DNA of 64,000 nucleotides from Periplaneta americana (lineage: Eukaryota > Arthropoda > Insecta > Blattodea > Blattidae). Made by a program: the position numbers and the translations under genes. A model generated the notes under the pieces. That model ran no database searches, was not told the origin of the DNA, and saw only the letters and a list, made by a program, of their open reading frames with translations. The stretch covers positions 193,988,127 to 194,052,126 of the forward strand of contig NC_091120.1 in NCBI RefSeq assembly GCF_040183065.1, read 5' to 3'. Below, one piece after another: positions 12,621 to 64,000 of the stretch (its first letter is position 1; each line of letters starts with the position of its first letter).

Positions 12621-12651
<31 letters not shown>

Positions 12652-12923: not shown

Positions 12924-12994
<71 letters not shown>

Positions 12995-23467: not shown

Positions 23468-24695
23468 TCTATATATATAATTTGAACTGGTAATGGAAAT
23501 TACGGGAAAACGGCTGAACAGATTTTAATGAGTGACCCCTCATTTTCATGCCTGGCATCCAAAGTTTTTCGGAAAAGTAGTAGTTTTCAGTAAAATATCA
23601 ATTTTCCTACATAATTTTCCTATTTTGCAAAATCCACCTGTTGTCAGTTTTGAGAACTAATGTTATTGAATCACTGCCGACTTGATTGAATTTCAGAACA
23701 AAACACATACTACAATAAACAATAGGCTATTACACGAAGGCCATGACCTGCAGGATTGCAGACATATTTAGAGCTCAATTAAATTTGTTATTAATAACTG
23801 ATTCTGTAGTGTATAATTTTCTGAGTACAGCTGTGTATTGGATATTCAAATCTACGAAACTTGAGGTGGTTTGATAACATTATTACCATTAGAAATGAAA
23901 TATTATTATAGTTAATATCATGATGCGTCTATTCTTCATTAATTGTACATAATACTGATGCTATATTGATGACATGAAAGTGAAACATTTTGTGGTTATG
24001 TAAGTAAATGTAGAGAATATCTTAATTTAGATCTTCATTTCAATAATTTACTGAATGACTACTATATATAACTACAAAACTTAAGTAAGATAATAATATT
24101 GTTATTAAAAATAAAATATTTTTATACTTATTAACCCAGTGGGGTTGGGTCTTTTTCATATACTTAATGGCGGTGTAGTGTAGATATTGATATGTGTCAT
24201 TGTCTTCAGTATTGGCTCGAGAGAGCGCAAAAATTACAGTTCCTATGGAAAGATCAAAAGGTATTACTTACTGATAAAATAAGAGGCCTAGAAAATGTTG
24301 TAGTCTCCAGATCATTTCAGCAAGATCTCTTAGTAGGATAAAATGATTTTACGCTCTACATTTCAAGTTCTGCATGCAGCAGCTATACGAAAATGCTATT
24401 GTTCGAAAGCTTAGCAAACCTGACATTTTTTTAACTTTTGCCTACAATCCACAATGACCTGAAATAGCTACTGCTATCGTCCTGACATTGATACTTGCGT
24501 TTTAGCGTTGAAACTCAAAAACTGAAGTTGGATAGGTTCAAGAAAAAGTATTTGGCCTAAAAAATCCATTCAGAGGGAGTATGTTTCATTATTATGGAAG
24601 CAAATAACTATCAAAAAGACAAGTATTCTGAAAAATTGTTATTTGAACGTCTAACGAACTTAGTTTGCAGCAGCATTTGCTGCACAAGCCACTAG
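23468..24695 (+). mobile_element. Helitron family 2, short copy (complete ends)
   Basis: It starts TCTATATATATAATTTGAAC preceded by A, and ends with a 6-bp-stem hairpin (GCAGCA...TGCTGC) then ACAAGCCACTAG and T. It is 1228 bp and non-coding. The internal segment around 23800-24060 is homologous to the 5' part of the long copies X and Y. Confidence 0.9.
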
Positions 24696-25239: not shown

Positions 25240-26164
25240 ATGAAGTACTTCATTTGTGTAAATTTTTGATAACGTATAAAAATAATTTACAGGTCTGATT
25301 CTCTGGTCTGTAGTTTTCCGAGTACAGCTGTGTATTCGATATTAAGAACTACAAAACTTAAGAATGTTTCGTGACATTATTACCATTAAAATGAAATATT
25401 ATTATAGTTAATGCAACACATAATGGTATACTGATGATATTAAAGTGAAATCTTTTGGGGCCTTAAGTAAGTAGACGTATAGGAAGAAGATTTTTTTATT
25501 AGATCTTCATTTCTATAATATACTGAGTATACTATAGTATACTATACTATAATATATATTATTGAAAACTATAAAACTTACGTAACAGCGTGGTCGATCG
25601 ACGGATGTTGCGTCGACATTTGTTGAGACTATAAATTAAGAATCCCTATAACATCGACATCAATGTGAAGTTTCAATTTTATACACGAGAACGTATAATC
25701 TCATAAACTTCTTTCCATCTGACTGTAGATAATTATTTGAAGAGAAATAATATAATGATAACGAGATACTAAGGTTATTGTTATGAACTTAACACTACTT
25801 GTATTAAACTTGTAGGATATGTGGAAATCAAACCACAGTATAGAGACCATATGCCATTGTTTAAAACTTCTGTCGTACATAATTTTGACGTACATATAAT
25901 AGATAAACAATTGATCCTCACTACTTTTCCCGCCAAGAGAGCACCTCCTTCTTCTAGCTATTCATTCATTCATTCATTCATTCATTCATTCATTCATTCA
26001 TTCATTCATTCATTTTATTCCATAGATCTTACATGAGCAATGAAGCTTTAAGATGTGGAACATGTCAACATTTTACAATATTACAATTACATTTTTACAA
26101 ATTTTTATGGTTTTACAATTTAGTAATTTTCTACAATTTTTACAATTTTGTACAATTTTTTTTA

Positions 26165-26480
26165 CACTTTTTTTTTTACATTTTGGCGAGATGTAGTGAG
26201 ATGAGATGAGGTCCGAGGATTCGCCAAAATATTACACGGCATTTGCCTTTTCGGTGGGGGAAACCTCGGAAAAACCCAACCAGGTAATCAAATCAAAGAG
26301 GGTAATCAAATCAAAGGGGTTGATGCCAAGGACTCGCTATAGACCATCCGGCTTCAGTCCCACGGCTGGGGAAAACCTCCGAAGAAACCAAAGTCCAAAG
26401 GGGGATCCAACCCAAGCCCGAACGCAGCTCCGGATCAGCAGCCCAGCGAGTCTGCCGACTGAGCTACATCGATGGCTCTA
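26165..26480 (-). repeat. tRNA-derived SINE, third family
   Basis: On the minus strand it starts with a good A box (TGTAGCTCAGTCGGCAGA) and a derived B box (GGGTTGGATCCC). The body includes GGTTTTCCCCAGCCGTGG and GAGGTTTCCCCCACCG, ending in an A-rich tail with GTAAAAA. It lies inside the LINE 3' region. Confidence 0.85.
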
Positions 26481-26640
26481 CTAAAAGTATACAATACATA
26501 GCCAATCAGATTATTAAATTTACAAACGCGCAACGATCATTCATAAGTTGAGCTAGGCCCTATATTATAATACAAAACAATTTAATTAAATTTAAGGCAT
26601 AAACAATTCAACCTGTTGTGATATACAGAAATTGATAATA

Positions 26641-26854
26641 GGGGAGAGTCGGGTAGTATCGGACATCGGGTAATATCGGACAGTGAGTTTCTTTCATCTA
26701 CCACACGATGATAGTACCTGATTGATATGGTTACGTTTCTGTGATGTCTCATAGAGAAACGTAACCATGTCAGTCAGGTGCTACCATATGGTGGTAGATA
26801 AAAGAAACGCACTGTCCGATATTACCCGATGTCCGATACTACCCGACTCTCCCC
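26641..26854. mobile_element. palindromic MITE, 214 bp, complete
   Basis: Long inverted arms start GGGGAGAGTCGGGTAGTATC and meet near 26750. TA flanks both ends. Within each arm the phrase TCGGACATCGGGTAATATCG forms short internal repeats. A half copy lies at 5508-5619. Confidence 0.92.
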
Positions 26855-27809
26855 TACATATCATGCAAACTACTTCAAATTACAAACACAAGCAATTTAT
26901 CAGTAGAGCTATATAGATTACTATTCAATTTAAAGCATGTACAATTCATCGCCCAAAACTATACAAATACATACAATACAAAGTAGCATACTTTCATTAA
27001 GCTATACAAATTTGTGCAATTAATATCAAGTAGATTAATTCAATTTATAATCATAAACAATTCATCAGTTGAGCTATACATATTACCATTCAATTTACAA
27101 TAGGTCTATATACAATTCATCAGTAGAGCTACACAGACTAGTAATCATTTTAAGAACATATACAATTCATCAGCCAAACTATACAAACATATACAATGAA
27201 ATTAGTTCAATTTACAAACTTATTTTCGTTAAGCTATACAATTCATATGAAGTAGATTAATTCAATTTATAAGCTTAAACAATTCATCAGTTGACCTATA
27301 CAGTATACTATTCAATTTACAGTACATACAATTCATCAGTTATGCTAAACAAAAAATACAATACATAGTAAACAGATTAAGTCAATATGAAAACATATTT
27401 TAGTTGAGCTATATAAAATTGTACATGTCATTTAAGTAGAATAATTCAATTCACAAGCAAAAACAATTCATGAATTGTGTAGAAGGTATGAGTATGTAGA
27501 AATTTGGTTAATTCTTTTCTGAACCTTTTCTCGTTGTTCTTCAAATCTTTAAGATAATTAGGCAGTGCGTTGAAGACTATGCCTCCGTCTTTCAGTTGCT
27601 GACTATAGTAGTCGTGACAGCAGGTTGCAACTTACACGCTTGGCCAACTTATGAGATATAATTATTTGGAAGTGTACGTCAGATTTACGTATCAATAGTA
27701 TTAATAGAAAATTTTCTGTTAGTGCAGTTTATTTATTCCCTTAAGTGTGTTTTATCTAACAAAGTAATACTGGATGAAAACTTACGTGGTGATCGACACT
27801 TCTCTGCAG

Positions 27810-27997
27810 ATCATAGATAAAAGTTCAGATGATGATGCTGATGGTGACGCTGAAGGCAATATAGAGATTGAATATGAAACTTGTGACAATGACAAGGATC
27901 TAAGATACAGTAGGAGAGATTGAGAATCACGTAGAAAGCAAGCGAATGGGGAAAGAAGGCAAAAAAACAAGAAAACAGGAAGAAAAAAAGGACGAGG

Positions 27998-28030
<33 letters not shown>

Positions 28031-28034
28031 GTAG
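27810..28034 (+). pseudogene. captured coding-like segment in Helitron X
   Basis: After a splice-acceptor-like TTCTCTGCAG, the frame reads IIDKSSDDDADGDAEGN, then 20 more residues to a TGA at 27921-27923. In the same frame a basic stretch (ESRRKQANGERRQKNKK) follows, then a GR-dipeptide run to a TAG at 28032-28034. Copy Y holds the same segment with the same TGA. Between X and Y the 37 codons before the TGA differ at about four replacement sites and one silent site, so no purifying selection is evident. The source gene is unrecognised. It is most likely a gene fragment picked up by the Helitron, not a working gene. Confidence 0.5.
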
Positions 28035-28059
28035 ACGGCAGACGGGAGAGAGGAGAGGA

Positions 28060-28615
28060 GAGGAGAAGGAAGAGGGCAGAGGGTAGAGGGCATGAGGGCA
28101 TGAAGGCAGAGGGGAGAGAGGAGAGGAGAGAAGGCAGAAGGCACGAGGGCAGAGGGCATGAGGGCAGAAGGCATGAGGGCAGAGGGCATGAGGGCACGAA
28201 GGCAGAGGGCGTGAGGGCAGGGGGCATGAGTGCACGAGGGCATGAGGGCACGAGGGCATGAGGGCACGAGAGCATGAGGGCACGAGGGCATGAGGGCACG
28301 AGGGCATGAGGGCACGAGGGCATGAGGGCACGAGGGCATGAGGGCATGAGGGCACGAGGGCATGAGGGCACGAGGGCATGAGGGCACGAGGGCATGAGGG
28401 CACGAGGGCAGAGGGCATGAGGGCAGAGGGCACGAGGGCACGAGGACAGAGGGCATGAGGGCACGAGGGCATGAGGGCACGATGGCATGAGGGCACGATG
28501 GCATGAGGGCAGAGGGCACGAGGGCATGTGGGCGTGAGGGCATGAGGGCAGAGGGCAGAGGTCATGGGGCATGGTTGCAGAAGGCATGCGGGCATGAGGG
28601 CTTGAGGGCAGTGGA
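28060..28615. repeat. octamer minisatellite in Helitron X (GAGGGCAY-type)
   Basis: Tandem 8-bp units GAGGGCAT/GAGGGCAC with 7-bp variants (GAGGGCA). It is the reverse complement of the GCCCTCRT array in copy Y, but only about 0.55 kb long. Confidence 0.95.
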
Positions 28616-28680
28616 GAGGAGAGGAGAGGAGAGGAGAGGAGAGGAGAGGAGAGGAGAGGAGAGGAGAGGAGAGGAGAGGA
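28612..28680. repeat. (GGAGA)n run
   Basis: GAGAGGAGAG pentamer repeat closing the octamer array. Its counterpart in copy Y is a short CTCTC run near 52257-52274. Confidence 0.95.
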
Positions 28681-28997
28681 TATTTTAATAACTCTAACCT
28701 ACAATCCACAACAACCTGAAATGACTATTCCTTCACTCCCACATGTAAAACCGACTGATCGTTCTGACATTGTTACTTGCTTTTTCACATTGGAACTCAA
28801 GAACTGAAGATGTATAGGTTAAATAAAAAGTATTTAGCATGAAGAAAACCATTCAGAGGAGTATGTTTCATTATTATGGAAGCAAATAACTTCCAAAATG
28901 TATGGTTATCTTCATTGGAAATACTCGTAAATTTGAAAAAAATTAATTTGAACTTCTAATGAACTTAGTTAGCATTTGCTGCACAAGCCACTAGTTT

Positions 28998-32933: not shown

Positions 32934-33100
32934 GTCAGTAAACGGAAATGCATTTTCAATCTCCATTCTCCACTATCAAGGCTATTGAAACATTTAAAAT
33001 TGAATAATTTGTCCTAAAATGCTACTGTATTCAATGTAATTTCAATGTGACTATTTTTATTCAATCACAGTCATCTATTCTATTGTTGAAATAATCTTGT

Positions 33101-34015: not shown

Positions 34016-34225
34016 TTGTTCCTGGTTAGTACAGAGATATTTAGAAGGCAGTGACAACTCATCGTCATTGAAACCCTATGTACAAATTAATGAGAAACAT
34101 CATAATCTCATTATAAACAAGCTACGAAACAACCAATCTACATCTTCATAGTAAAGAATGCCAATTCCAATATATTGTACTTCCAATTACAAAACATAAG
34201 GGTGTTTTAAGATCCATATCGAGGA

Positions 34226-34791: not shown

Positions 34792-36260
34792 TTCTTAACA
34801 CTAGATGGCAAGTAGAACTGAACTGTGAATAAAAATCAGTACTTCATCTGTAATCCAGATTCTTAACATTAGATGGCAATTAGAAGTGAATCTATACTAA
34901 TAATAAATCTGTAGCCGAAATTTTTCCGGTAATTTTCGATTTTCAAAAATAATTGGTCCTAACATATATAATTAACCACCCTGAAACCGAAAATCGTTTT
35001 TTTGAAAATTTTGTTTGTATGTCTGTCTGTCTGTCTGTATGTTTGTTACCTCTTCACGCGATAATGGCTGAACGGATTTCGATGAAAATTGGAATATAAA
35101 TTAAGTTCTTTGTAACTTAGATTTTAGGCTATATGGTATTAAAATACATTATTTAAAAGGGGGGTTATAAGGGGGCCTGAATTAAATAAATCGAAATATG
35201 TCGCTTATTATTGGTTTTTGTGAAAAATATTACATAACAAAAGTTTCTTTAAAAATAATTTTCGATAAGTTTTATTCCTTGAAAAATTTTGATAGGACTG
35301 ATATTTAATGAGATAAATGAGTTTTAAAATTAAAATAACTGCCATCTAAGGCCGTGTAATGAATTAAAAAACAAATGACTTCGTCTATAAGGGGCCTTGG
35401 ACAGCAACAATCGAAAGCTATGAAAGATAGCCTACAGAGAATGCTTCTGTGTTTGTATGAAGGAATATCGGAAGCTAAATTAACCGATTTGTATAATTAA
35501 TTATTAATTCACCATTGGAAAGTGTAGTTTCTCTAGATGGAGATAATGCTATAATGTTATTACAGTAACTTCTGATATAATATAATATAATATAATATAA
35601 TATAATATAATATAATATAATATAATATAATATAATATAATATAATATAATATAATATAATATAATATAATATAATATAACATAATATAATATAATATAA
35701 TATGTTATGTAATGTAATATTATATAATTTAAGTTATTTGAAGGGTTCAGAACCATAGTGGGCCAAGCGCCATTTACTGAATACGTAGAAAACAAGTGTT
35801 AAAATTAAGTTATTACCATAATTCAATGGAAACCTGTAACAAGTAAAATAAAATACACACATTAAATCTAAATTATGTCAATCTTCATTAAACTATGGAT
35901 GCATGTAATAAAAATTAAGAAACATGTTAAAGGAATTGTCATTGCACCAAATGAGTGTCTCTGGACCAAAATGATCGCATTTTAATTATTTGGATGCAAT
36001 TTAAATTAAGTAACATATTAAACGATTTATCCTTCTATCAAACACGAATGTTCCCTGGATCAAACGTCCTATTTTAATTATGTAATTACTTTATATTTAT
36101 TTCTAACGGGTGCAGCGGAGCGCACGGGTACGGCTAGTTGTGAATAAAAATCTGTACTTCATCTGTAATGCAGATTCTTAACACTAGATGGCAAGTAGAA
36201 CAGAATTGTGAATAAAAATCTGTACTTCATCTGTAATCCAGATTCTTAACACTAGATGGC
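34792..36260. repeat. 68-bp tandem repeat, interrupted by Helitron D
   Basis: Units contain TTCTTAACACTAGATGGCA and GTGAATAAAAATCTGTACTT. About one and a half units precede the Helitron (34792-34890) and about two follow it (36138-36260). The SINE at 34567 inserted at the left edge of the same array. Confidence 0.85.
34891..36137 (+). mobile_element. Helitron family 1, copy D (complete ends)
   Basis: TCTATACTAATAATAAATC at 34891, preceded by A; ends CTAG at 36134-36137, followed by T. 1247 bp, with (ATAAT)n at about 35575-35702. Open frames inside (LYYIILYY) come from the pentamer array. Confidence 0.95.
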
Positions 36261-41614: not shown

Positions 41615-42328
41615 CTAAATGGATATGACCTACCTGCAGCGGTCTTTGAGGGCTGTCCTTCCTTAAGGAGATTCAAGAATAACTTAAAAAGTTATGTATA
41701 AAGTGCAGATTAAAATTAAGGTGACATTTAACATTTAATTTTTTAAGGTGACATGTATTTATTTAGCTTGACGAGTTACTCCCTTGGTTTGAATTGTAAA
41801 TTATTTAAAAATAGCTTGTAAGAGGGTCTTAGACTAGAAATGTTTAGCTTAAATGTAGTTCTGTTTATAAGTATGCATAAGGGTGTAATTATTTGTCATA
41901 TTTGAACTGTTGTATCAGTGAATCGAGGTGAGTCAGTGAAGTTATGGTTTTACAGTGCAGTGAATAGTTCCGATCAGTGATAATTTATAGCGTCAATGAA
42001 ATGTGTTCTATAGTGTCAGTGAAATGTGTTCTAAAGTGTCAGTGAAATGCGTCATAGTGCCACTACAGTGAGTGAGATGAGAGTAAAGTGAAAGACTATT
42101 GAAACTTATGTAGGGCCTATACATATATCGGTTGTATTGTAAAGTTGGGTTATTTTATGTTTTATTATTAATTGTAATTATCGTGTTAAATTGTATTGTG
42201 TATTCTTATTTTATTGTGTATGTAATTGTATTGTGTATTGTATAATTGTATTGTGTATTGTAATTTTATTGTGTATTGTTTATATTGTGCATACCACTGC
42301 CACCGGGTGCTTGCCCACTTGCAGTGTA

Positions 42329-42330
<2 letters not shown>
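41615..42330 (+). repeat. LINE 3' fragment, second copy
   Basis: It starts within the C-terminal codons (GYDLPAAVFEGCPSLRRF) and follows the 3' UTR of 37330-38060 almost throughout, ending CCACTTGCAGTGTAAATAAA, and passes straight into the TAAA array at 42329. Confidence 0.87.
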
Positions 42331-43334
<1,004 letters not shown>

Positions 43335-43420
43335 ATATCAAAAGATTAGTAGAAGGGACACCACAGGGAAAAGGAAAACCATCTGTTACTTGGATGCAGA
43401 ACAAGCTGATACAAGTTATG
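43335..43420 (+). pseudogene. possible LINE C-terminal scrap
   Basis: A frame reads IKRLVEGTPQGKGKPSVTW, similar in pattern to the GRPEGKRPLGRPRRRW block of the RTE-like copies at 3029 and 47714. It is short and uncertain. Confidence 0.3.
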
Positions 43421-45744: not shown

Positions 45745-45800
45745 ATTCTGGTGTAGTTAAGGCCATCAGGGCTTCTCTTCCACACCACCAGAAATACAAA
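45745..45800 (-). repeat. LINE 3' end interrupted by Helitron E
   Basis: The reverse complement gives GAAGCCCTGATGGCCTTAAC, the conserved 3' UTR phrase of the 18975 and 43990 LINEs. It probably continues after the Helitron from 46798. Confidence 0.65.
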
Positions 45801-46797
45801 TCTATACTAATAATAAATCTGTAGCCGAAATTTTTCTGGTAATTTTCGATTTTCCAAAAATAATTGGTCCTAACATATATAATTAACCACCCTGAAACCG
45901 AAAATAGCTTTTTTGAAATTTTTGATTGTATGTCTGTCTGTCTGTATGTTTGTTACCTTTTCACGCGATAATGGCTGAACGGATATCGATGAAAATTGGA
46001 ATATAAATTAAGTTCGTTGTAACTTAGATTTTAGGCTATATGGCATTAAAAATACATTATTTAAAAGGGGGGTTATAAGGGGGCCTGAATTAAATAAATC
46101 GAAATATCTCGCTTATTATTGATTTTTGTGAAAAATGTTACATAACAAAAGTTTCTTTAAAAATAATTTGCGATAAGTTTTATTCCTTGAAAAATTTTGA
46201 TAGGACTGATATTTAATGAGATAAATGAGTTTTAAAATTAAAATAACTGCCATCTAAGGCCGTGTAATGAATTAAAAAACAAATGACTTCGTCTATAAGG
46301 GGCCTTGGACAGCAACAATCGAAAGCTATGAAAGATAGCCTACAGAGAATGTTTCTGTATGAAGTAATGACGGATGTTAAATTAACCGATTTGTCTAATT
46401 AATTGTTATTTCACCATTGGAAAGTGTAGTTTCTCTAGATGGACATAATACTATAATGTTATTATAGTAACTTCTGAGTAAATCGAGGACAGGTAAGATT
46501 AAAATAACTTCTTATACACAGAAAACTTAATAGGCTATTTTGTACATTCATTAAACTATGGTTGCATGTAATAACAAATAATAAACATAAAGGAATTGTC
46601 ATTGCATCAAATGAGTGTCTCTGGACGAAAATGATCCCATTTTAATAATGTAAATACAATTTAAATTAAGTAACGTATTAAACGATTTATTCTTCTATCA
46701 AACACGAATGTTCCCTGGATCAAACGTCCTATTTTAATTATGTAATTACTTCATACTTATTTCTAACGGGTGCAGCGGAGCGCACGGGTACGGCTAG
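45801..46797 (+). mobile_element. Helitron family 1, copy E (complete ends)
   Basis: It starts TCTATACTAATAATAAATC after A at 45800 and ends CTAG at 46794-46797, followed by T. At 997 bp it is the only complete copy with no (ATAAT) array; at that position it has GAGTAAATCGAGGACAGG. Confidence 0.95.
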
Positions 46798-46964
46798 TAC
46801 AATAATAGAACAAAAAATAAAAAATCACACTATAAACAAAGGAAAGCCACACAAAAATATACACAGGTTGCAGTCATACAAACTTTAGATGAGTGATTAA
46901 GTATCATAATTAATTATAACCTAACTAATTTACAAACATAAACAAGAAACTTGCAATTTTAATC

Positions 46965-46965
<1 letters not shown>

Positions 46966-47024
<59 letters not shown>
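46966..47024. repeat. (TTA)n microsatellite
   Basis: An uninterrupted TTA run directly before the 5' truncation point of the RTE-like copy. Confidence 0.95.
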
Positions 47025-47040
47025 CGTTTTATATAATATT

Positions 47041-48110
47041 CTTATTGAATTTGATATTCCCAAGAAAGTAGTTCGATTAATTACAATGTGTCTCAGTGAA
47101 ACGTACAGCAGAGTCTGTATAGGTCAGTTTCTGTCAGATGCGTTTCCAATTCACTGTGGGCTAAAGCAAGGAGATGCACTATCACCTTTACTTTTTAACT
47201 TTGATCTAGAGTATGCCATTAGGAAAGTCCAGGATAACAGAGAGGGTTTGGAATTGAACGGATTACATCAGCTGCTAGTCTATGCGGATGACGTGAATAT
47301 GTTAGAAGAAAGTCCACAAACGATTAGGGAAAACACGGGAATTTTACTTGAAGCAAGTAAAGAGATAGGTTTGGAAGTAAATCCCGAAAAGACAAAGTAT
47401 ATGATTATGTCTCATGACGAGAATATTGTACGTAATGGAAATATAAAAATGGGAAATTTATCCTTTGAAGAGGTGGAAAAATTCAAATGCCTGGGAGCAA
47501 CAGTAACAAATATAAATGATACTCGGGAGGAAATTAAACACAGAATAAATATGGGAAATGCCTGTTATTATTCGGTTGAGAAGCTTTTATCATCCAGTCT
47601 GCTGTCAAAAAATCTGAAAGTTAGAATTTATAAAACAGTTATATTACCGGTTGTTCTTTATGGTTGTGAAACTTGGACTCTCACTTTGAGAGAGGAACGT
47701 AGGTTAAGGGTGTTTGAGAATAAGGTGCTTAGGAAAATATTTGGGGCTAAGAGGGATGAAGTTACAGGAGAATGGAGAAAATTACACAACACAACTGCAC
47801 GCATTGTATTCTTCACGTGACATAATTAGGAACATTAAATCCCGACGTTTGAGATGGGTAGGGATTGTGGCACGTATGGGCGAATCCAGAAATGCATATA
47901 GAGTGTTAGTTGGGAGGCCGGAGGGAAAAAGACCTTTAGGAAGGCCGAGACGTAGATGGGAAGATAATATTAAAATGGATTTGAGGGAGGTGGGATATGA
48001 TGATAGAGAATGGATTAATTTTGCTCAGGATAGGGACCAATGGCGGGCTTATGTGAGGATGGCAATGAACGTCCGGGTTCCTTAAAAGCCAGTAAGTAAG
48101 TAAGTATTGT
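47041..48110 (+). pseudogene. RTE-like LINE fragment, copy 2
   Basis: Coding sense starts at 47041 ([20 protein letters not shown]), upstream of the first Met at 47086. RT motifs GLKQGD (residues 25-30 from that Met), [13 protein letters not shown] and the catalytic VYADD (65-69) are present, then [27 protein letters not shown] and [15 protein letters not shown] 2-base deletion near 47790, seen against copy 1, shifts the frame; the rest ([20 protein letters not shown] to NVRVP) is in another frame and stops at 48083-48085. It ends with AGTAAGTAAGTAAG repeats. It lies in intron 2, about 90 bp before exon 3. Confidence 0.9.
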
Positions 48111-51068: not shown

Positions 51069-51954
51069 TTGACTTTGACTTTGGTAAGTCGAGATTAGAC
51101 GATCTTGTTCTAATGTTGGCAATTAAAATCACTGCCTTGTAAACGAATTAAATTAATAGATAGTTGAAATAGAGTTGGCATTGCCCATTATTTGAGCCAC
51201 AAATAAATGAAACAATTGAACATCGGTACATGATAAGCAATTGTTAACCGTTCTTGCATCTTTACATAAGAATAATATTATTCGAGGGCTTATTGTGAAA
51301 GTAAAGTAAGTACAAAAATTAACATTTTTAGGTCTTCACACCAATCGATAATAATTTGTTTTTTTTTTTTTACCTGGCCACAAAAAATCGTAACTCAGTT
51401 CGAACAGTCTTGTATGTAACACAATTCATAACTACAAAACATGAAATAGTATTGCCTGTTAAGAATTTTGTTGTGAATAAAACATATATTGTAGTTACGT
51501 TAATTTCACATATTATTTCGTTAAAAATAATTTTGTTGTGAAGATATGGAAGAAAATATTCAACCAATGGCAGACTATGAAAGAGACATATTATCCTGCT
51601 GATAGTTGGTAGAGTTATTCCTTGCATGTCAGCAGAAACTACTTAAAAATTATGTGAAATCAATATGCAGAAAACATTATTATGACGACCGCAAGGATTA
51701 TAAATTAACTGCATTTCCAACTGCAGGCCTATAACCTATCTTTTATAGAATTGTCAAAAATCAGTATTAAGCTATCAATCCTTACCAATAGCGTAAAATC
51801 GCGATGAAATAAATTGTAATATTTATTGGTGGACAAATAATCCTCTTTGATTATTCATCAAAGATAATTGAAACATGACGAGGATATTTAATACTGCCTG
51901 TTTATCAAATCTGTACCTTGATTTGAATTTATAATCTATAATAACTAGTGGCTT
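51069..51954. other. no recognisable gene
   Basis: AT-rich. Two short frames around 51356-51627 on opposite strands have no domain. Confidence 0.55.
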
Positions 51955-52274
51955 GTGCAGCAAACACTGCTAACTAAGTTCATTTGAAGTTCAAATCAAA
52001 TTTTTTCGAATTTATTTCCAATGAAAAATACCAGACATTTTGGAAGTTACTTGCTTCCATAATAATGAAACATATCCCTCTGAATGGTTTTCTTCATGCT
52101 AAATACTTTTTATTTAACCTATACATCTTCAGTTCTTGAGTTCCAATGTGAAAACGCAAGTAACAACGTCGGAACGATCAGTCGGTTTTACATGTGGGAG
52201 TGAAGCGATAGCTATTTCAGGTTATTATGGATTGTAGGTTAGAGTTATGAAAATATCCTCTCCTCTCCTCTCCA

Positions 52275-55200
52275 TTGCCCTCTGCCATCGGCCCTCTGCC
52301 CTCATGCCCGCATGCCCTATGCAATCATGCCCCAGGACCTCTGCCATCTGCCCTCATGCCCTCACGCCCACAAGCCCTCATACCCACGTGCCGTAATGCA
52401 CTCGTACCCTCTGCCCTCGTGCCCTCGTTACCTTGTGCCCTCATGCCCTATGCCCTCGTGCCCTCGTGCACTCAGCCTTCATGCCCTCGTGCCCTCGTGC
52501 CCTCGTTCCCTCATGCCCTCATGCCCTCGTGCCGTCATGCCCTCATGCTCTCATGCCCTCGTGCCCTCATGCCCTCGTGCCCTCGTGCCCTCTGCACTCG
52601 TGCCTCCTGCCATCGTGACCTCATGCCCTCGTGCCCTCATGCCCTCGTGCCGTCATGCCCTCGTGCCCTCGTGCACTCATGCCCTCGTGCCGTCATGCCC
52701 TCGTACCCTCATGCCCTCGTGCCGTCATGCCGTCATGCCCTCGTGCCGTCATGACCTCGTACCGTCATGCCCTCGTGCCCTCGTGCCCTCATGCCCTCAT
52801 GCCCTCGTGCCGTCATGCCCTCGTGCCATCATGCCCTCGTGCACTCATGCCCTCGTGCCGTCATGCCTTCATGCCGTCATGCCCTCGTGCCCTCGTGCCG
52901 TCATGCCCTCATGCACTCGTGCCGTCATGCCCTCATGCACTCGTGCCGTCATGCCCTCGTGCCCTCATGCCCGCGTGCCGTCATGCCCTCGTGGCCTCAT
53001 GCCCTCGTGCCCTCATGCCCACGTGCCGTCATGACCTCGTGCCCTCGTGCCTTCATGCCCTCGTGCCCTCATGCCCTCTTGCCGTCATGCCCTCGTGCCG
53101 TCATGTCCTCGTGCCGTCATGCCCTCGTGCCCTCATGCCCTCGTGCCGTCATGCCTTCATGCCGTCATGCCCTCGTGCCCTCGTGCCGTCATGCCCTCAT
53201 GCACTCGTGCCGTCATGCCCTCATGCACTCGTGCCGTCATGCCCTCGTGGCCTCATGCCCGCGTGCCGTCATGCCCACGTGCCGTCATGACCTCGTGCCC
53301 TCGTGCCTTCATGCCCTCGTGCCCTCATGCCCTCTTGCCGTCATGCCCTCGTGCCCTCATGCCCTCTTGCCGTCATGCCCTCGTGCCGTCATGTCCTCGT
53401 GCCGTCATGTCCTCGTGCCATCATGCCCTCGTGCACTCATGCCCTCGTGCCGTCATGCCTTCATGCCGTCATGCCCTCGTGCCGTCATGCCCTCATGCAC
53501 TCGTGCCGTCATGCCCTCATGCACTCGTGCCGTCATGCCCTCATGCACTCGTGCCGTCATGCCCTCGTGCCCTCAGGCCCTCTTGCCGTCATGCCCTCGT
53601 GCCCTCGTGCCGTCATGCCCTCGTACCCTCATGCTCTCGTGCCGTCATGCCCTCGTGCCCTCTGCCCTCGTGCTCTCATGCCCTCGAGCACTCGTGCCGT
53701 CATGCCCTCGTGCCCTCTGCCCTCGTGCGCTCGTGGCCTCGTGCCCTCATGCCCTCGAGCCCTCATGCCCTCGTGCCCACATGCCCTCGTGCCCTTATGC
53801 CCTCATGCCCTCTGCACTCGTGCCCTCTTGCCCTCGTGCAGTCATGCATTCCTGCCTTCATGCCCTAGTGCGCTCATGCCCTCGTGCCCTCATGCCATCC
53901 TGCCGTCATGCCCTCATGCCGTCATGCCTTCGTACCCTCATGCCCTCGTGCCGTCATGCCCTCATGCACTCGTGCTGTCATGCCCTCGTGCCGTCATGCA
54001 CTCGTGCCGTCATGCCCTCGCGCCGTAATGACCTCGTGCCCTCATACCCTCGTGCCATCATGCCCTCTTGCCGTAATGCCCTCGTGTCCTCGTGCCCTCG
54101 AGCCCTCGTGCCGTCATGCTCTCGTGCCGTCATGCCCTCGTGTCGTCATGCCCTCGTACCCTCATGCCCTCGTGCCGTCGTGCCCTCGTTCCCTCATGCC
54201 CTCGTGCCCTCATGCCCTCCTACCTTCATGCCCTAGTGCCCTCATGCCCTCGTGCCGTCATGCCCTCGTAACCTCATGCTCTCGTGCCGTCATGCCTTCG
54301 TGTCCTCATGCCCTCGTGCCCTCTGCTTTCGTGACCTCATGCTCTCGTGCCCTCATGCTCTCGTGCCGTCATGCCCTCGTGCCCTCATGCCCTCCTGCCG
54401 TGATGCCCTCGTTTCCTCTTGCCCTCGTGCAGTCATGCCCGCGTGCCTTCATGCCCTAGTGCTCTCAGGCCTTCGTGCCGTCATGCGCTCGTGCCCTTAA
54501 GCCCTCTGCCCTCGTGCCCTCGTTCCGTCATGCCCTCGTGCCATCTGCCCTCGTGCCGTCCTGGCCTCGTGCCCTCTGCACTCGTGCCCTTTGCACTCGT
54601 GCCCTCGTGCCGTCATGCCCTCGTGCCCTCTGCCCTCGTGCCCTAATGCCCTTTGCTCACGTGCCCTCTGCCCTCGTGCCCTTATGCCCTCGCGCCCTCT
54701 TGCCTTCGTGCCGTCATGCCCTAGTGCCGTCATGCCCTCATGCCCTCGTGCGGTCATGCCCTCATGTCCTCGTGCCATCATGCCCTCGTGCCCTCGAGCC
54801 CTCGTGCCGTCATTCCCTCGTGCCGTGATGCGCTCGTGCCCTCGTGCCCTCATGCCCTAGTGCCGTCATGCGCTCGTGCCCTCATGCCCTCGTGCCCTTA
54901 TGCCCTCGTGCCCTCATGCCCTCGTGCCCTCATGCCCTGGTGCCCTCATGCCCTCCTGCACTCGTGCCCTCTTGCCCTCGTGCAGTCTTGCCCTTGTGCC
55001 CTCTGCCCTCGTGCCCTCATGCCCTCGTGCACTCTGCCCTCGTGCCCTCTTGCCCCCGTCCCCTCGTGCAGTCATGCCCTCGTGCCCTCTGCCCTCATGC
55101 CGTCAGCCCTCGTGCCCTCATGCCCTCGAGCACTCGTGCCCTCATGCCTTCATGCCATCATGCCCTCGCACCCTCTGCCCTCGTGCGCTCGTGCCCTCGT

Positions 55201-58200
55201 GCCCTCTGCACTCGTGCCCTCTGCCCTCGTGCGCTCTTGCCATCGTGCCCTCGTTCCCTCGAGCCCTCGTGCCCTCATGCCCTCGTGCCGTCAAGCCCTC
55301 GTGCCGTCATGCCCTCGTGCCTCTGCCCTCGTGCTCTCCTACCTTCATGCCCTCGTGCCCTCATGATCTCGTGCCCTCTGCAGTCGTGCCCTCGTGCCCT
55401 CTGCACTCGTGCCCTCGTGCCCTCATGCCCTAGTGCTGTCATGCCCTCGTGCAGTCATGCCCTCGTTCCCTCGATCTTTCGTGGCGTCATGCCCTCGTGC
55501 AATCATGCCCTCATGCAATCGTGCCCTCTACACTCGTGCCCTCTGCCCTCGTGCCCTCTTGCCCTCGTGCCCGCATGCCCTTGTGCCCTCATGCCCTCGT
55601 GCCGTCATGCCCTCGTGCACGTCATGCCCTCGTGCCTTCTGCCTTCGTGCCCTCATGCCCTCGTGCCCTTCGCCCTCTTGCGGTCGTGCCCTCATGCCCT
55701 TGTGCCCTCATGCCCTCGTTTTCTCATGCCCTCATGCCCTCGTGCCCTCTTGCCCTCTGAACTTGTGCCCTCGTACCCTCATGCCATCGTGCCGTCATGC
55801 CCCTGTGCCGTCATGCCCTCGTTCCCTCGAGCTCTCGTGGCGTCATGTCCTCGTGCCGTCATGCCCTCATGCCCTCGTGTCCTCGTGCCCTCGTGCCCTC
55901 ATGCCCTTGTGCCGTCATGCCCTCGTTCCCTCGAGCTCATGTGGCGTCTTGCCCTCGTGCAGTCATGCCTTCGTGCCCTCATGCCCTCGTGCTTTCATGC
56001 CGTCATGCCCTCGTGCCCTCATGCCCTCTGCCCTCGTGCCCTCGTGCCGTCATGCCCTCGTTCCATCTGCCCTCGTGCCGTCCTGCCCTCGTTCCCTCTG
56101 CACTCGTGCCCTTTGCTCTCGTGCCCTCGTGCTGTCATGCCCTCTTGCCCTAATGCCCTTTGCTCTCGTGCCCTCTGCCCTCGTGCCCTTATGCCCTCGT
56201 GCCCTCTTGCTTTCGTGCCGTCATGCCCTCATGCCCTCGTGCCATCATGCCCTCGTGCCCTCGAGCCCTCGTGCCGTCATTCCCTCGTACCGTGATGCGC
56301 TCGTGCCCTTGTGCCCTCATGCCCTAGAGCCGTCATGCGCTCGTGCCCTCATGCCCTCTTGCCCTCATGCCCTCCTGCCCTCATGCCGTCATGCCCTCGC
56401 GCCCTAATGCCCTTGTGCCCTCATGCCCTCCTGCCCTATTGCCCTCGTGCAGTCTTGCCCTTGTGCCCTCTGCCCTCGTGCCCTCATGCCCTCGTGCACT
56501 CTGCCCTCGTGCCCTCTTGCCCCCGTGCCCTCGTGCAGTCATGCCCTCGTGCCCTCTGCCCTCAAGCCGTCTGCCCTCGTGCCCTCATGCTCTCGAGCAC
56601 TCGTGCCCTCATGCCTTCGTGCCATCATGCCCTCGCACCCTCTGCCCTCGTGCCCTCGTGCCCTCTGCACTCGTGCCCTCTGCCCTCGTGCCCTCTTGCC
56701 ATCTTGCCCTCGTTCCCTCGAGCCCTCGTGCCCTCATGCCCTCGTGCCGTCAAGCCCTCGTGCCGTCATGCCCTCGTGCCTCTGCCCTCGTGCACGTCAT
56801 GCCCTCGTGCCCTCTGCCTTCGTGCCCTCATGCCCTCGTGCCGTCATGCCCTCGTGCCCTTCGTCCTCTTGCGTTCATGCCCTCGTGCCCTCATGCCCTC
56901 GTTTTCTCATGCCCTCATGCCCTCGTGCCCTCTTGCCCTCTGCACTCGTGCCCTCGTACCCTCATGCCATCGTGCCCTCATGCCCTCGTGCCGTCATGCC
57001 CTCGTTCCCTCGAGCTCTCGTGGCGTCATGCCCTCGTGCCGTCATGCCCTCATGCCCTCGTGTCCTCGTGCCCTCATGCCCTTGTGCCGTCATGCCCTCG
57101 TTCCCTCGAGCTCATGTAGCGTCTTGCCCTCGTGCAGTCATGCCTTCGTGCCCTCATGCCCTCGTGCTTTCATGCCGTCATGCCTTCGTGCCCGCATGCC
57201 CTCGTGCCGTCATGCCCTCGTGACCTCGAGCCATCGTTCCGTCATGCCCTCGTACCCTCATGCCCTCGTGCCGTCATGTCCTCTTGCCCTCATGCCCTCG
57301 TGCCCTCTGCCCTCGTGAACTCATGCCCTCGTGCCGTCATGCCCTCGTGCCCTCATGCCCTCCTGCCGTCATGCCCTCGTGCCCTCGTGCAGTCATGCCC
57401 TCGTGGCTTCATGCCCTCGTGCCCTCATGCCCTCGTGCCGTCATGTTCTCGTTCCCTCGTTTCCTTGTGCCGTCATGCCCTCGTGCACTCTGCCCTCGTG
57501 CCCTCATGCCCTCGTGTCTTCCGCTCTCGTGCCCTCATGCCCTCGTGCCCTCATGCCGTTATGCCCTTGTGCCCTCATGCCCTCGTGCCCTCACGCCCTC
57601 TGCCCACATGCCCTCATGCCCTCGTGCCCTAATGCCCTCGTGCCCTCGTGCCCTCATGCCCTCTTGCTCTCGTGCCCTCATGCCCTCGTGCCGTCATGCC
57701 CTCTGCCCTCGTGCGTTCGTGCCATCATGCCCTCGCACCCTCTGCCCTCGTGCGCTCGTGCCCTCGTGCCCTCTGCACTCGTGCCTTCTGCCCTCGTGCC
57801 CTCTTGCCATCGTGCCCTCATTCCCTCGAGCCCTCGTGCCCTCATGCCCTCGTGCCGTCAAGCCCTCCTGCCGTCATGCCCTCTTGCCTCTGCCCTCGTG
57901 CGCTCCTGCCCTCATGCCCTCGTGCCCTCATGGTCGCGTGCCCTCTGCAGTCGTGCCCTCGTGCTCTCTGCTCTCGTGCCCTCGTGCCCTCATGCCCTAG
58001 TGCTGTCATGCCCTCGTGCAGTCATGCCCTCGTTCCCTCGATCTCTCGTGGCGTCATGCCCTCGTGCAATCATGCCCTCGTGCCCTCTGCACTCGTGCCC
58101 TCTGCCCTCGTGCCCTCTTGCCCTCGTACCCGCATGCCCTTGTGCCCTCATGCCCTCATGCCGTCATGCCCTCGTGCACGTCATGCCCTCGTGCCCTCTG

Positions 58201-61200
58201 TCTTCGTGCCCTCATGCCCTCGTGCCGTCATGCCCTCGTGCCCTTCGCCCTCTTGCGTTCGTGCCCTTATGCCCTCGTGCCCTCATGCCCTCATGCCCTC
58301 GTTTTCTCATGCCCTCATGCCCTCGTGCCCTCTTGCCCTCTGCACTCGTGCCCTCGTACCCTCATGCCATCGTGCCCTCATGCCCTCGTGCCGTCATGCC
58401 CTCGTTCCCTCGAGCTCTCGTGGCGTCATGCCCTCGTGCCGTCATGCCCTCATGCCCTCGTGTCCTCGTGCCCTCGTGCCCTCATGCCCTTGTGCCGTCA
58501 TGCCCTCGTTCCATTCGAGCTCATGTGGCGTCTTGCCCTCGTGCAGTCATGCCTTCGTGCCCTCATGCCCTCGTGCTTTCATGCCGTCATGCCTTCGTGC
58601 CCGCATGCCCTCGTGCCGTCATGCCCTCGTGACCTCGAGCCATCGTTCCGTCATGCCCTCGTACCCTCATGCCCTCGTGCCGTCATGTCCTCTTGCCCTC
58701 ATGCCCTCGTGCCCTCTGCCCTTGTGAACTCATGCCCTCGTGCCGTCATGCCCTCGTGCCCTCATGCCCTCCTGCCGTCATGCCCTCGTGCCCTCGTGCA
58801 GTCATGCCCTCGTGCCTTCATGCCCTCGTGCCCTCATGCCCTCGTGCCGTCATGTTCTCGTTCCCTCGTTCCCTAGTGCTCTCATGCCCTCTGCCCTCGT
58901 TCCCTCGTGCCCTCGTGCTGTCATGCCCTCGTGCACTCTGCCCTCGTGCCCTCATGGCCTCGTGTCCTCCGCTCTCGTGCCCTCATGCCCTCGTGCACTC
59001 ATGCCCTCGTGCCCTCATGCCGTCATGCCCTTGTGCCCTCTTGCCCTCGTGCCCTCATGCCCTCGTGCCCTCATGCCCTCTGCCCACGTTCCCTCATGCC
59101 CTCGTGCCCTAATGCCCTCGTGACCTTGTGCCCTCTTGCCGTCATGCCCTCGTGCCTTCGTGCCCTCTTGCTCTCGTGCCCTCATGCCCTCGTGCCGTCA
59201 TGCCCTCTGCCCTCGTGCCCTCATGCCCTCGTGCCGTCATGCCCTCGTGCCCTCGTGCCCTCGTTCTTTCGTGCCCTCATGCCCTCGTGCTCTCGTGCCC
59301 TCATGCCCTCGTGCTCTCATGCCCACGTGCCGTCATGCCCTCGTGCCAAGCCCTCGTGCCTTCATGCCCACGTGCCCTCTGCGCTCGTCCCCTCATGCCC
59401 TCGTGCCATCATGCCGTCTGCCCTCGTGCCCTCATGCCCTGATGCGGTCATGCCCTCGTGCCCCCTGCCCTCGTGCCCTCATGCCCTCGTGCCCTCGTGC
59501 CTTCATTCCCTCGTGCCCTCAGCCCTCGTGCCCTCGTGCCGTCATGCCCTCCTGCCCTCTGCCCTCGTGTCCTTATGCCCTCGTGCTTTCGTGTCCTCGT
59601 GCCCTCGTGCCCTCATGCCCTTGTGCCGTCATGCCCTCGTTCCATTCGAGCTCATGTGGCGTCTTGCCCTCGTGCAGTCATGCCTTCGTGCCCTCATGCC
59701 CTCGTGCCGTCATGTTCTCGTTCCCTCGTTCCCTAGTGCTCTCATGCCCTCTGCCCTCGTTCCCTCGTGCCCTCGTGCTGTCATGCCCTCGTGCACTCTG
59801 CCCTCGTGCCCTCATGGCCTCGTGTCCTCCGCTCTCGTGCCCTCATGCCCTCGTGCACTCATGCCCTCGTGCCCTCATGCCGTCATGCCCTTGTGCCCTC
59901 TTGCCCTCGTGCCCTCATGCCCTCGTGCCCTCATGCCCTCTGCCCACGTTCCCTCATGCCCTCGTGCCCTAATGCCCTCGTGACCTTGTGCCCTCTTGCC
60001 GTCATGCCCTCGTGCCTTCGTGCCCTCTTGCTCTCGTGCCCTCATGCCCTCGTGCCGTCATGCCCTCTGCCCTCGTGCCCTCATGCCCTCGTGCCGTCAT
60101 GCCCTCGTGCCCTCGTGCCCTCGTTCTTTCGTGCCCTCATGCCCTCGTGCTCTCGTGCCCTCATGCCCTCGTGCTCTCATGCCCACGTGCCGTCATGCCC
60201 TCGTGCCAAGCCCTCGTGCCTTCATGCCCACGTGCCCTCTGCGCTCGTCCCCTCATGCCCTCGTGCCATCATGCCGTCTGCCCTCGTGCCCTCATGCCCT
60301 GATGCGGTCATGCCCTCGTGCCCCCTGCCCTCGTGCCCTCATGCCCTCGTGCCCTCGTGCCTTCATTCCCTCGTGCCCTCAGCCCTCGTGCCCTCGTGCC
60401 GTCATGCCCTCCTGCCCTCTGCCCTCGTGTCCTTATGCCCTCGTGCTTTCGTGTCCTCGTGCCCTCGTGCCCTCATGCCCTTGTGCCGTCATGCCCTCGT
60501 TCCATTCGAGCTCATGTGGCGTCTTGCCCTCGTGCAGTCATGCCTTCGTGCCCTCATGCCCTCGTGCTTTCATGCCGTCATGCCTTCGTGCCCGCATGCC
60601 CTCGTGCCGTCATGCCCTCGTGACCTCGAGCCATCGTTCCGTCATGCCCTCGTACCCTCATGCCCTCGTGCCGTCATGTCCTCTTGCCCTCATGCCCTCG
60701 TGCCCTCTGCCCTTGTGAACTCATGCCCTCGTGCCGTCATGCCCTCGTGCCCTCATGCCCTCCTGCCGTCATGCCCTCGTGCCCTCGTGCAGTCATGCCC
60801 TCGTGCCTTCATGCCCTCGTGCCCTCATGCCCTCGTGCCGTCATGTTCTCGTTCCCTCGTTCCCTAGTGCTCTCATGCCCTCTGCCCTCGTTCCCTCGTG
60901 CCCTCGTGCTGTCATGCCCTCGTGCACTCTGCCCTCGTGCCCTCATGGCCTCGTGTCCTCCGCTCTCGTGCCCTCATGCCCTCGTGCACTCATGCCCTCG
61001 TGCCCTCATGCCGTCATGCCCTTGTGCCCTCATGCCCTCGTGCCCTCATGCCCTCTGCCCACGTTCCCTCATGCCCTCGTGCCCTAATGCCCTCGTGACC
61101 TTGTGCCCTCTTGCCGTCATGCCCTCGTGCCTTCGTGCCCTCTTGCTCTCGTGCCCTCATGCCCTCGTGCCGTCATGCCCTCTGCCCTCGTGCCCTCATG

Positions 61201-61900
61201 CCCTCGTGCCGTCATGCCCTCGTGCCCTCGTGCCCTCGTTCTTTCGTGCCCTCATGCCCTCGTGCTCTCGTGCCCTCATGCCCTCGTGCTCTCATGCCCA
61301 CGTGCCGTCATGCCCTCGTGCCAAGCCCTCGTGCCTTCATGCCCACGTGCCCTCTGCGCTCGTCCCCTCATGCCCTCGTGCCATCATGCCGTCTGCCCTC
61401 GTGCCCTCATGCCCTGATGCGGTCATGCCCTCGTGCCCCCTGCCCTCGTGCCCTCATGCCCTCGTGCCCTCGTGCCTTCATTCCCTCGTGCCCTCAGCCC
61501 TCGTGCCCTCGTGCCGTCATGCCCTCCTGCCCTCTGCCCTCGTGTCCTTATGCCCTCGTGCTTTCGTGCCCTCATGCCCTCTGCCCTCATGCCCTCGTGC
61601 CCTCTTCCCTCATGCCCTTGTGCCCTAGTGCCATCATGGCCTCGTGCCCTCAAGCCCTCGTGCCCTCATACCCTCTTGTCCTCATGCTCTCGTGCCATCA
61701 TTCCCTCGTGCACTCATGCCCTCGTGCCCTCATGCCCTCGTGCCCTCATGCCCCTGCCTTCACGCCATCTGCCTTCGTGCCCTCATGTCCTCTGCCCTCG
61801 TGCCTTCCTCGTGCCCTCGTGCCCTCATGCCCTCTGCCTTCTCTCCTCTCCACTCTCCCCTCTGCCTTCATGCCCTCATGCCCTCTCCCCTCTGCCCTCT
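52275..61900. repeat. 9.6-kb octamer minisatellite (GCCCTCRT)n
   Basis: 8-bp units GCCCTCGT and GCCCTCAT with frequent variants (GCCGTCAT, GCACTCGT, 7-bp GCCCTCT). The unit contains no stop triplet on the plus strand in any frame, so frames of up to 489 residues run through it, all reading shifted forms of PSCPHALV. The plus strand is extremely C/T-rich. Block duplications of 860 and about 1115-1131 bp occupy 58.4-61.6 kb. Confidence 0.97.
58907..61628. repeat. recent higher-order duplications in the octamer array
   Basis: The variant-rich block starting at 58907 recurs at 59767 (+860) and 60898 (+1131); the block at 59128 recurs at 59988 (+860) and 61103 (+1115). The third copy lacks 16 bp, i.e. 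two octamers. Marker phrases such as TCCATTCGAGCTCATGTGGC recur at about 58512, 59642 and 60503. Confidence 0.9.
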
Positions 61901-62048
61901 TCCCTCTCATCTCCTCTCCTCTCCTCTCTCCCGTCTCCCGGCTGCCGTCTACCGTCCTCGTCATCGTCCTTGTCTTTGTCCTTTTCTTTTCTTCCTGTTT
62001 TCTTGTTTTTTGCCTTCTTTCTCTATTCGCTTGCTTTCTGCGTGATTC

Positions 62049-62162
62049 TCAATCGCTCCTACTGTATCTTAGATCCTTGTCATTTTCACAAGTTTCATAT
62101 TCAATTTCTACATTGCCTTCAGCGTCACCATCAGCATCATCATCTGAACTTTCATCTATGAT
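62049..62162 (-). pseudogene. captured coding-like segment in Helitron Y
   Basis: The minus-strand frame IIDESSDDDADGDAEGN to RYSRSD ends at the same TGA as in copy X. Downstream, one A is missing from the poly-A stretch compared with X, shifting the basic region. The source gene is unrecognised. Confidence 0.5.
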
Positions 62163-62768
62163 CTGCAGAGTAGTGTCGATCACCACGTAAGTTTCCATCC
62201 AGTGTTACTTTGTTAGATATACACACTTAAGGGAATAAATAAACTGCACTAACAGAAAAATTTCTATTAATACTATTGATACGTAAATCTGACGTACACT
62301 TCCAAATAATTATATCTTATAATAAGGTGGCCAAGCGTGTAAGTTGCAACCTGCTGTTACGACTACAATAGTCAGCAACTGATAGACGGAGGCATAGCTA
62401 GAAAAGGGAGGTGCTCTCTTGGCGGGAAAAGTAGTGAGGATCAATTTTTATTCCATTGTACGTCGAAATTACGTACGACAGAAGTTTTAAACAATGGAAT
62501 TACTTCCTCGTGAGCCGGAAGAAAACAACTGTTTGATCACAGTATAGAGATATGTTCTCTGTACTGATGTTTGATTTCCACATATCCTACAAGTTTAATA
62601 CAAGTAGTGTTAAGTTCATAACAATAACCTTAGTATCTCGTTATCTTTATATTATTTCTCTTCAAATAATTATCTACAGTCAGATGGAAAGAAGGTTATG
62701 AGATTATACGTTCTCGTGTATAAAATCGAAACTTCACGTTGATGTCGATGTTATAGGCATTCCAAATT

Positions 62769-63639
62769 GAGGGCTTTGCCGGAAGGCAGATAGACCTCTA
62801 CGCCTTCTTCGGGAAAACGGTTTAAAATGTAGTGAATAATTAGCTAATTATAGTAGCGAAATTTTGTTTTGATTGTACTGTACATACCTGCAGGACAGGG
62901 CTGCATGTGTGCTTGCGCGATTTAGTCAGTCAGTCTACAAGTAGAGCTGGTGCTCCGCGTTACCGCAAACTGCACTGTGTGTGTTTTCTCTTGGTAGATA
63001 CTAAGCAAATATATATATATATATATATATAGTTCAATTCAGTCAGTCCAGTTGTTTCCTTTGACTGCTTTTTATGTTCATTATTGTCCTTGCTTTAAGA
63101 GTAAACAAACTTTTGAAACTCATAGATTCAGACGTAAATATTTTATGTTCTATAAAGAGATTTGTTACAATATTCAGATTTTTGGGCTTAGTTTTATTTA
63201 TTTATGTTCACACAAAATGGAGATTTTATTTTTCTGTTAGCCTATATTCAGAGATTTTGCTTTACGTACTTAATGTCTACTCAGTATATCTGAAATAATG
63301 TAAATTACTTTATAAGTAGATAATAAATGTCATAAAATGTATCTTTGTTTCAATTCCGTGTGAAATTTAAATTTGAAATTTACATTAAATCCCCTAAGCA
63401 AATCATTATATGGATAAAGAGCATATAGACCGAAGTTTTATATGGTACAAATATAAGGAAATTTAATAATATAAATTGCCTAAATGCTACGAAACATTTA
63501 TACTCGCTAATGTTTTTAATTTAATGTATAATTTTCCCTATTTGTATAACATTTTATTCAGGTGCATTTTAAAATCTTAGATTGCATATATCTCAATTCA
63601 CCATATTGACGTATACGCCCTTTTTCCGGCAAACCCCTC
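62769..63639. mobile_element. TIR element inserted in Helitron Y, 4-bp AATT target duplication
   Basis: The left end GAGGGCTTTGCCGGAA and the reverse complement of the right end (GAGGGGTTTGCCGGAA) form the TIRs. AATT flanks both ends, and the empty site in copy X (about 25633-25640) has a single AATT. It is 871 bp with a (TA)n run at about 63009-63030. The frames at 63052-63298 show no domain. The superfamily is unassigned. Confidence 0.85.
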
Positions 63640-64000
63640 AATTCATAGTCTCAACAAATTTTGACGCAACATCCGTCGATCGACCACGCTGTTACGTAAG
63701 TTTTATAGTTTTCGGTATATTATAGAAATGAAGATCTAATATAAAATCTTTCTCTGCGCCTGCTTACTTAAGGCCCCAAAAGGTTTCACTTTCGTATCAT
63801 CAGTATACTATTATGTGTTGCATTAACTGTAATAATATTTCATTTTTAATGTAATAATGTCACTAAACATTCTCAAGTTTTGTAGTTCTTAATATCGAAT
63901 ACACAGGTGTACACGGAAAACTACAGACCAGAGAATCAGGCCTGTAAATTACTTTTATACATTATCAAAAAATTACACAAATGAAGATCGACACATTGGC

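Follow-up and report, generated by a model that had tools for sequence, protein, structure and literature searches.

A GC-rich octamer array inside a Helitron-like element of the American cockroach and its probable growth after insertion

The DNA analysed here, a 64,000-nucleotide stretch of the Periplaneta americana genome (assembly GCF_040183065.1, contig NC_091120.1, positions 193,988,127 to 194,052,126) that we call the window, contains two copies of one Helitron-type element, X and Y, each with a GC-rich array of 8-bp units in its middle. The best overall explanation, in which we have good confidence, is that a short octamer seed is carried by the Helitron and that the arrays then change length copy by copy after insertion. 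A sequence-only reading of the window had put the array at about 9.6 kb in Y and about 0.55 kb in X. These are assembled lengths (Table 1), and they are borne out by TRF, which reports 1209.5 copies of an 8-bp unit at 52338-61899 and 69.9 copies at 28072-28610. In 1-kb bins from 52001 to 62000, the lag-8 match rate is 0.60-0.75 and the GC content 0.57-0.66, while the bins of the window outside the arrays mostly have a GC content of 0.21-0.43. On the strand of the element the octamer reads GAGGGCAY, with GAGGGCAT and GAGGGCAC as its most frequent units, and the units of the Y array are mixed, with the commonest counted unit making up 31%.

The same reading had described one Helitron present twice in inverted orientation, with the array lying between homologous flanks, and masked self-BLAST confirms this, with homology found on both sides of the array: 28688-28996 matches 52248-51943 in inverted orientation at 90.7% and 27577-27979 likewise matches 62397-61994 at 94.3%, and further 5' the flanks of X and Y match at 80-82%. 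Copy Y, 12,382 bp long, is a complete insertion of the form A^TC...CTAG^T and extends 326 bp past the end of the window; its 5' end, an A followed by TCTATACTATATATAATTTGAAC, was found by reading genome bases outside the window. The 5' end TCTATATATATAATTTGAAC that had been quoted for the family does occur in the window but, with up to 2 mismatches, only in the relative Z at 23468 and not in X or Y. According to self-BLAST, the insert of X at 25960-27576 is missing from Y and the insert of Y at 62769-63636 is missing from X; the latter, judging by its ends, looks like a small TIR transposon. The 5' half of the element also contains a 49-codon ATG...stop open stretch with an acidic middle (27774-27923 in the window, and its homologues), which is open in the flank consensus too and is possibly a captured exon.

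Table 1. Coordinates of the features discussed, in window positions
Feature	Position	Strand	Basis
Helitron copy Y, 12,382 bp; complete element extends to window-equivalent 64326 (genome C4:194052452)	51945..64000	-	3' end CACTAG at 51945, then T on the element strand; 5' end beyond the window
Y 5' flank (homologue in X: 25248-27979)	61994..63986	-	masked self-BLAST
Y 3' flank (homologue in X: 28688-28996)	51943..52248	-	masked self-BLAST, 90.7%
Octamer array of Y, expanded (element-strand unit GAGGGCAY)	52275..61899	-	TRF, lag-8 matching, unit shuffles
Left (5') array edge of Y, common to X (28001-28239)	61736..61982	-	87% over 252 columns; exact marker matches in X and Y alone
Right (3') array edge of Y (approximate limits), common to the last ~85 bp of the X array (28528-28612)	52275..52375	-	91.5% over 82 columns
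930-bp block in two copies (59655-60584, 58795-59724), offset 860, 98.5% identical, with the 882-bp exact repeat; most alike duplication in the Y array	58795..60584	-	internal comparison
868-bp insert in Y, not in X; inverted-repeat-like ends TTGAGGG..TTTGCCGGAA (ends seen by eye)	62769..63636	.	self-BLAST
Helitron copy X, without ~340 bp at the 5' end, internal start; ~1.6-kb insert 25960-27576	25248..28994	+	self-BLAST and end patterns
Short octamer array of X, then (GGAGA)n tract 28613-28680	28060..28615	+	TRF
Helitron copy Z, arrayless relative, TC...CTAG ends	23468..24695	+	self-BLAST and end patterns

The window is rich in other repeats. A second repeat family (6093-7247, 8347-10253, 34890-36158 and 45800-46807; copies mostly 93-95% identical) includes copies with an ATATA pentamer array inside them, and two of its copies lie head to tail at 8363-10028. 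There are two long TAAA-type arrays, at 10942-13027 (2.1 kb) and 42327-43337 (1.0 kb), a 68/137-bp tandem array of 2.1 kb at 29872-31948, a 31-bp array of 0.9 kb at 33097-34019 (89% matches), and three reverse transcriptase fragments (RVT_1) at 4-984, 15153-16157 and 46963-47817.

Canonical Helitrons begin with TC, end with CTRR and insert between A and T without a target-site duplication; some 10 nt short of the 3' end they carry a short hairpin, and they have an autonomous partner that encodes Rep/helicase and has the same ends. Both terminal motifs are present in Y and in Z, the counts over the family being partly by construction: CTAG is followed by T in 44 of 46 3' ends (the pattern itself required TAG) and TC is preceded by A in 7 of 7 5' ends (the pattern itself required TC), and it is from these flanking bases that insertion between A and T is judged. 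The family consensus can form a weak 3' hairpin, GCAGC-ATTT-GCTGC, with a 5-bp stem, which does not convincingly outdo shuffled sequence (-5.5 kcal/mol, z -1.1); the corresponding values are -3.7 and 0.16 in Y, and X has a different fold (-1.7, z 0.97). The genome contains at least 150 Helitron_like_N domains (of 9274 candidates, 150 were scored and every one passed the cut-off), as against none in 14 control genomes, and the longest open frames among those listed are 692 and 580 aa. Open frames with this domain lie, among other places, at C5:115.1 and C12:55.4 Mb. The family shares with Helentron/HINE elements (DINE-1 type) two conserved blocks that flank central tandem repeats; the oligo-T or T-T target of those elements was not found at the same 5' and 3' ends. 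From its termini and insertion sites, we read the carrier as a non-autonomous family of canonical Helitrons, and the end and target features that could be tested agree with the assignment to Helitrons made earlier.

The genome comprises 3,231,669,367 bases in 91 contigs. At up to three mismatches, the 3' end of the family has 14,243 matches against 2 for the reversed control, the junction between the array and the 3' flank 192 against 0, and the 5' flank of the element 238 against 0. Among 47 examined copies, a set from which L019, L028 and L029 were kept out as repeats of L018, X and Y, both flanks are present in 37; 36 of these span 101-1427 bp (median 419.5 bp) and Y spans 9734 bp. The other ten, which lack one or both flanks, did not enter the length count. 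Through coordinate pairing and a DNA probe from the Y block, 66 of the 100 listed junctions (192 in total) were sized, the values being of three kinds: lengths from flank to flank, approximate distances between flanks, and matched spans. The median is 442 bp, ten arrays exceed 1 kb and three exceed 2 kb, namely Y (9.7 kb), C13:2727629-2734016 (6.4 kb) and C11:168626732-168630107 (3.4 kb). Three of 37 coordinate flank pairs (9109, 10941 and 16719 bp) were dropped as mispairs, each being explained by a nearer flank or array. The comparison of array length per copy across the genome that had been proposed with the sequence-only reading thus leaves Y the longest of the 66 arrays sized and gives it no class of its own: the arrays form a continuum of lengths, with Y at the tail.

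In the copies that were printed out, the middle tract typically runs from GAAGA pentamers through octamers to GGAGA-type repeats, and the mix of octamer variants is specific to the copy. The arrays of L009, L011, L014 and L037 run from GAGGGCAC to GGGGGCAC, and since such a trait is common to several copies, part of the variety may predate insertion. Longer arrays show only a weak tendency to have more diverged flanks (rho 0.33, p 0.043, n=37; 0.29, p 0.088 without Y), and octamer number shows no significant rise with flank divergence (p 0.11; 37 copies); an effect of age on length was set aside as too weak to rely on. At C4:208573919-208633595, not more than 132 kb from the contig end, ten exact element 5' flanks lie on one strand within 60 kb, five of the nine spacings being about 3.4 kb, and the element looks as if caught in tandem segmental amplification. 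Four array places at C4:205634373-205671361 have an equal matched length of 546 bp, with two of three spacings of about 15.41 kb, which looks like a recent segmental duplication with the arrays unchanged.

The arrays of X and Y resemble each other most at their edges. The alignment of the left edge scores 165, the next of 19 copies reaching 95, and a marker taken from this edge has exact matches at just two sites in the genome, X and Y (another match has 2 mismatches; the reversed control gives 13). At the right edge, the 82 columns aligned between X and Y score 60, the best of 36 copies, with the next at 42. A longer right-edge alignment of ~290 bp was tried as a private mark of X and Y and abandoned: it ranks third of 19 copies, and only its last ~82 bp are distinctive. 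The flanks of the two copies are 5.9% apart, the median over 276 pairs being 5.6%, and have 2 changes in common, which ranks 12 of 595 (the best pair has 5); taken alone, the flanks do not mark the two copies as close relatives. The edges of the two arrays point to a probable origin from a single array, with most of the differences lying inside these edges. Inheritance of the array type along with flank similarity was also considered and rejected, there being no signal and the sign being opposite.

Most of the Y array consists of internal duplications: those that are 120 bp or longer and no less than 94% identical, with identity scored in successive short segments, cover 81% of it, and no internal repeat of 120 bp at 94% was present in any of 20 unit shuffles of this array, so the order of units in it is not random. 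The longest exact repeat is 882 bp, as against 44-55 bp in five shuffles. Duplications of at least 150 bp, 92 to 98.5% identical, have offsets of 860, 1115, 1131, 1400, 1409, 1467, 1975, 1991, 2567, 2583 and 3400, among others. The flanks of Y diverge by 3.8% from the family flank consensus (2.7% in X; median 2.7%), and next to such divergence an exact repeat of 882 bp implies that this duplication is younger than the insertion, unless it has been homogenised; gene conversion could give old duplications a young look. The best reading of this internal structure is that the Y array grew in place, through nested block duplication. The earlier view of the array as an internal part of a mobile element that has grown in place therefore holds, given a left edge common only to X and Y and nested duplications with the 882-bp exact repeat.

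The 882-bp exact tandem duplication is at the same time a point in favour of an assembly artefact, in which mis-joining of repeats would have inflated the 9.6-kb length. We regard such an artefact as very unlikely: the units of the array are mixed, as described above, two more arrays, of 6.4 and 3.4 kb, are also several kb long, and the assembly appears to be HiFi-based. The American cockroach assembly is described as built from PacBio HiFi and Hi-C data, with 3.23 Gb in 91 scaffolds and an N50 of 188.1 Mb, from 90.6 Gb in more than 6.6 million HiFi reads, or ~13.7 kb per read (the parts of PMC12774602 available to us).

The age of the 882-bp repeat relative to the flanks also bears on a second alternative, according to which the arrays grow during transposition, by slippage or by repeated passage on a circular intermediate, and the length is fixed at the birth of each copy. 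Under a rolling-circle model the G-rich strand would be the transferred strand, and the detected arrays all lie on the same strand as the 3' junction of the element. Array similarity does not track flank similarity (rho +0.19 and +0.23 with divergence, 276 pairs), as if reset at each jump, and partial rolling-circle amplification has been discussed for Helitrons (PMC12628747, in part). We nevertheless find this explanation rather unlikely, because an exact repeat in an element with diverged flanks fits it poorly, because the graded identity of the duplications, from ~92 to 98.5%, points to repeated events, and because marker distances vary within a cluster of probable segmental duplicates. In this same-strand cluster on C14, at 22.40-22.45 Mb, five of eight copies have a marker string at 388, 449, 401, 417 and 417 bp from the junction, with steps of 13, 16 and 32; from their spacing the copies appear to be segmental duplicates, and the marker distances suggest change in octamer steps following the segmental duplication. 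That a rolling-circle transposon amplifies the array, as had been proposed, receives no backing from these data, in which nothing was found that ties growth to rolling-circle transposition.

It could also be supposed that the G-rich octamer forms G-quadruplexes, which stall replication and thereby lead to expansion. The share covered by G3+N1-7 motifs is 22% in Y and 52% in X, where mononucleotide shuffles average 5% and 14%, and nil in the remaining 53.5 kb of the window. The main loops, however, are of 5 nt, and a limit of 3 nt on loop length brings the coverage of Y to 0.0; nor is the G-quadruplex share correlated with array length (rho -0.16, 0.04 and 0.00 for loops of up to 3, 4 and 7 nt; n=28). 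In yeast, the instability of G-quadruplex minisatellites is tied to short loops: the human CEB1 minisatellite is, like the cockroach array, a G-rich tandem array of changing length, but its instability needs the short-loop structures (PMC5491262, as far as available to us). G-quadruplexes are thus unlikely to drive the growth, and we give this explanation a quite low probability.

A last alternative concerns the source of the octamers: the Helitron may have captured a free-standing octamer satellite rather than grown one inside itself. Helitrons do capture host sequence (PMC12628747, in part), and the distribution of the octamer over the genome speaks to this alternative as well as to the earlier suggestion that the element seeds satellites across the genome. 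Perfect four-unit octamer tracts occur at 841 sites in 3.23 Gb (none in the reversed control), and the 100 sites listed make up ten places, eight of which adjoin a listed element flank. The probe from the Y block detected at least 39 other array places (39 scored of 262 candidates); Y itself is absent from that listing, which makes the census a lower bound. Listed element flanks abut 20 of the 39, and ten of the remaining 19 were read, seven with the 3' flank and three without it on the side read, so that of the 39 places 30 were assessed, 27 adjoining an element flank and three being without it on the side read. The three flank-less places, at C12:177.19, C4:205.70 and C15:2.575 Mb, are the sole hints of detached arrays, and they also fit a capture; they may be broken elements. 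We consider capture highly improbable, in view of the small number of four-unit sites, the proximity of most listed places to element flanks, and the copies in which the same position holds no octamer-like match (L040, L047 and L056) or a single one (L024 and L036). The seeding of satellites across the genome was not seen in these counts, and the octamer was rejected as a genome-wide satellite owing to the rarity of perfect four-unit tracts.

Along contigs C1-C7 the listed junctions form 40 clusters, of which 30 fall within the terminal 10% at one end or the other, compared with 15 of the 59 Helitron_like_N matches listed on these contigs. A distal concentration as a property of the arrays was rejected, arrayless relatives being distally dense too: the 88 listed on C1 all lie below 97.7 Mb, 52 of them in the first 22.9 Mb.

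In the mechanism that we favour, seed carriage followed by change after insertion, one subfamily has a purine-rich tandem tract between two conserved halves, and a short octamer seed would move along with the element, the seed presumably being inherited from copy to copy. After insertion, each array would change on its own, by small gains and losses in octamer steps through slippage or short unequal exchange, and in long arrays out-of-register exchange or template switching would duplicate blocks of ~0.2 to 0.9 kb. We infer that the duplications come from unequal exchange between sisters or homologues and not from replication restart, and that array growth is independent of transposition.

Expansion of a short internal array in a Helitron or Helentron is described as a common example of satellite formation, and nothing is overturned by our observations, as the expansion of central arrays in Helitron-type elements is already in reviews (PMC12628747, in the parts available to us). 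The closest cases that we encountered are DINE-TR1 and Cg_HINE. DINE-TR1, a Helentron of Drosophila whose central part holds tandem repeats (Dias et al. 2015, via PMC9957191), resembles the cockroach family in having two conserved blocks around a central array that reaches satellite-like length in some lineages; it has a ~150-bp unit and is of the Helentron type, whereas the cockroach unit is GC-rich and of 8 bp and lies in an A^T Helitron. The satellite derived from DINE-TR1 in D. serrata reaches ~82.6 kb (PMC9957191, in part), whereas the longest cockroach array sized, of 9.6 kb, is still within its element. The Cg_HINE elements of the Pacific oyster are likewise non-autonomous rolling-circle elements with central satellite-like arrays, dispersed over the genome, but they are Helentrons with subterminal inverted repeats and oligo-T targets, in contrast to the A before TC and the T after CTAG seen here (PMC7492417, in part). 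No description of this cockroach Helitron family was found in the literature searched, which was of limited scope, and the word Helitron is absent from the main text, as available to us in part, of the American cockroach assembly paper (PMC12774602).

The cockroach array adds a good further case to a process that has already been described from flies and oysters. It is a well-placed case of satellite birth, as the carrier, the presumed seed, the edge-sharing copy X, arrays of intermediate length (0.1 to 6.4 kb) and the long array of Y are all present in one assembly, and since this assembly is apparently HiFi-based, models of array growth become testable by counting. It is conceivable, and we put this forward tentatively as somewhat short of an even chance, that the ~200 insertions each began their own minisatellite from the same short seed and that the switch from octamer steps to block duplication can be read along the length series. 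If this is true, the family would constitute a natural replicated experiment, in one genome, on the growth of an array from a few units to nearly 10 kb.
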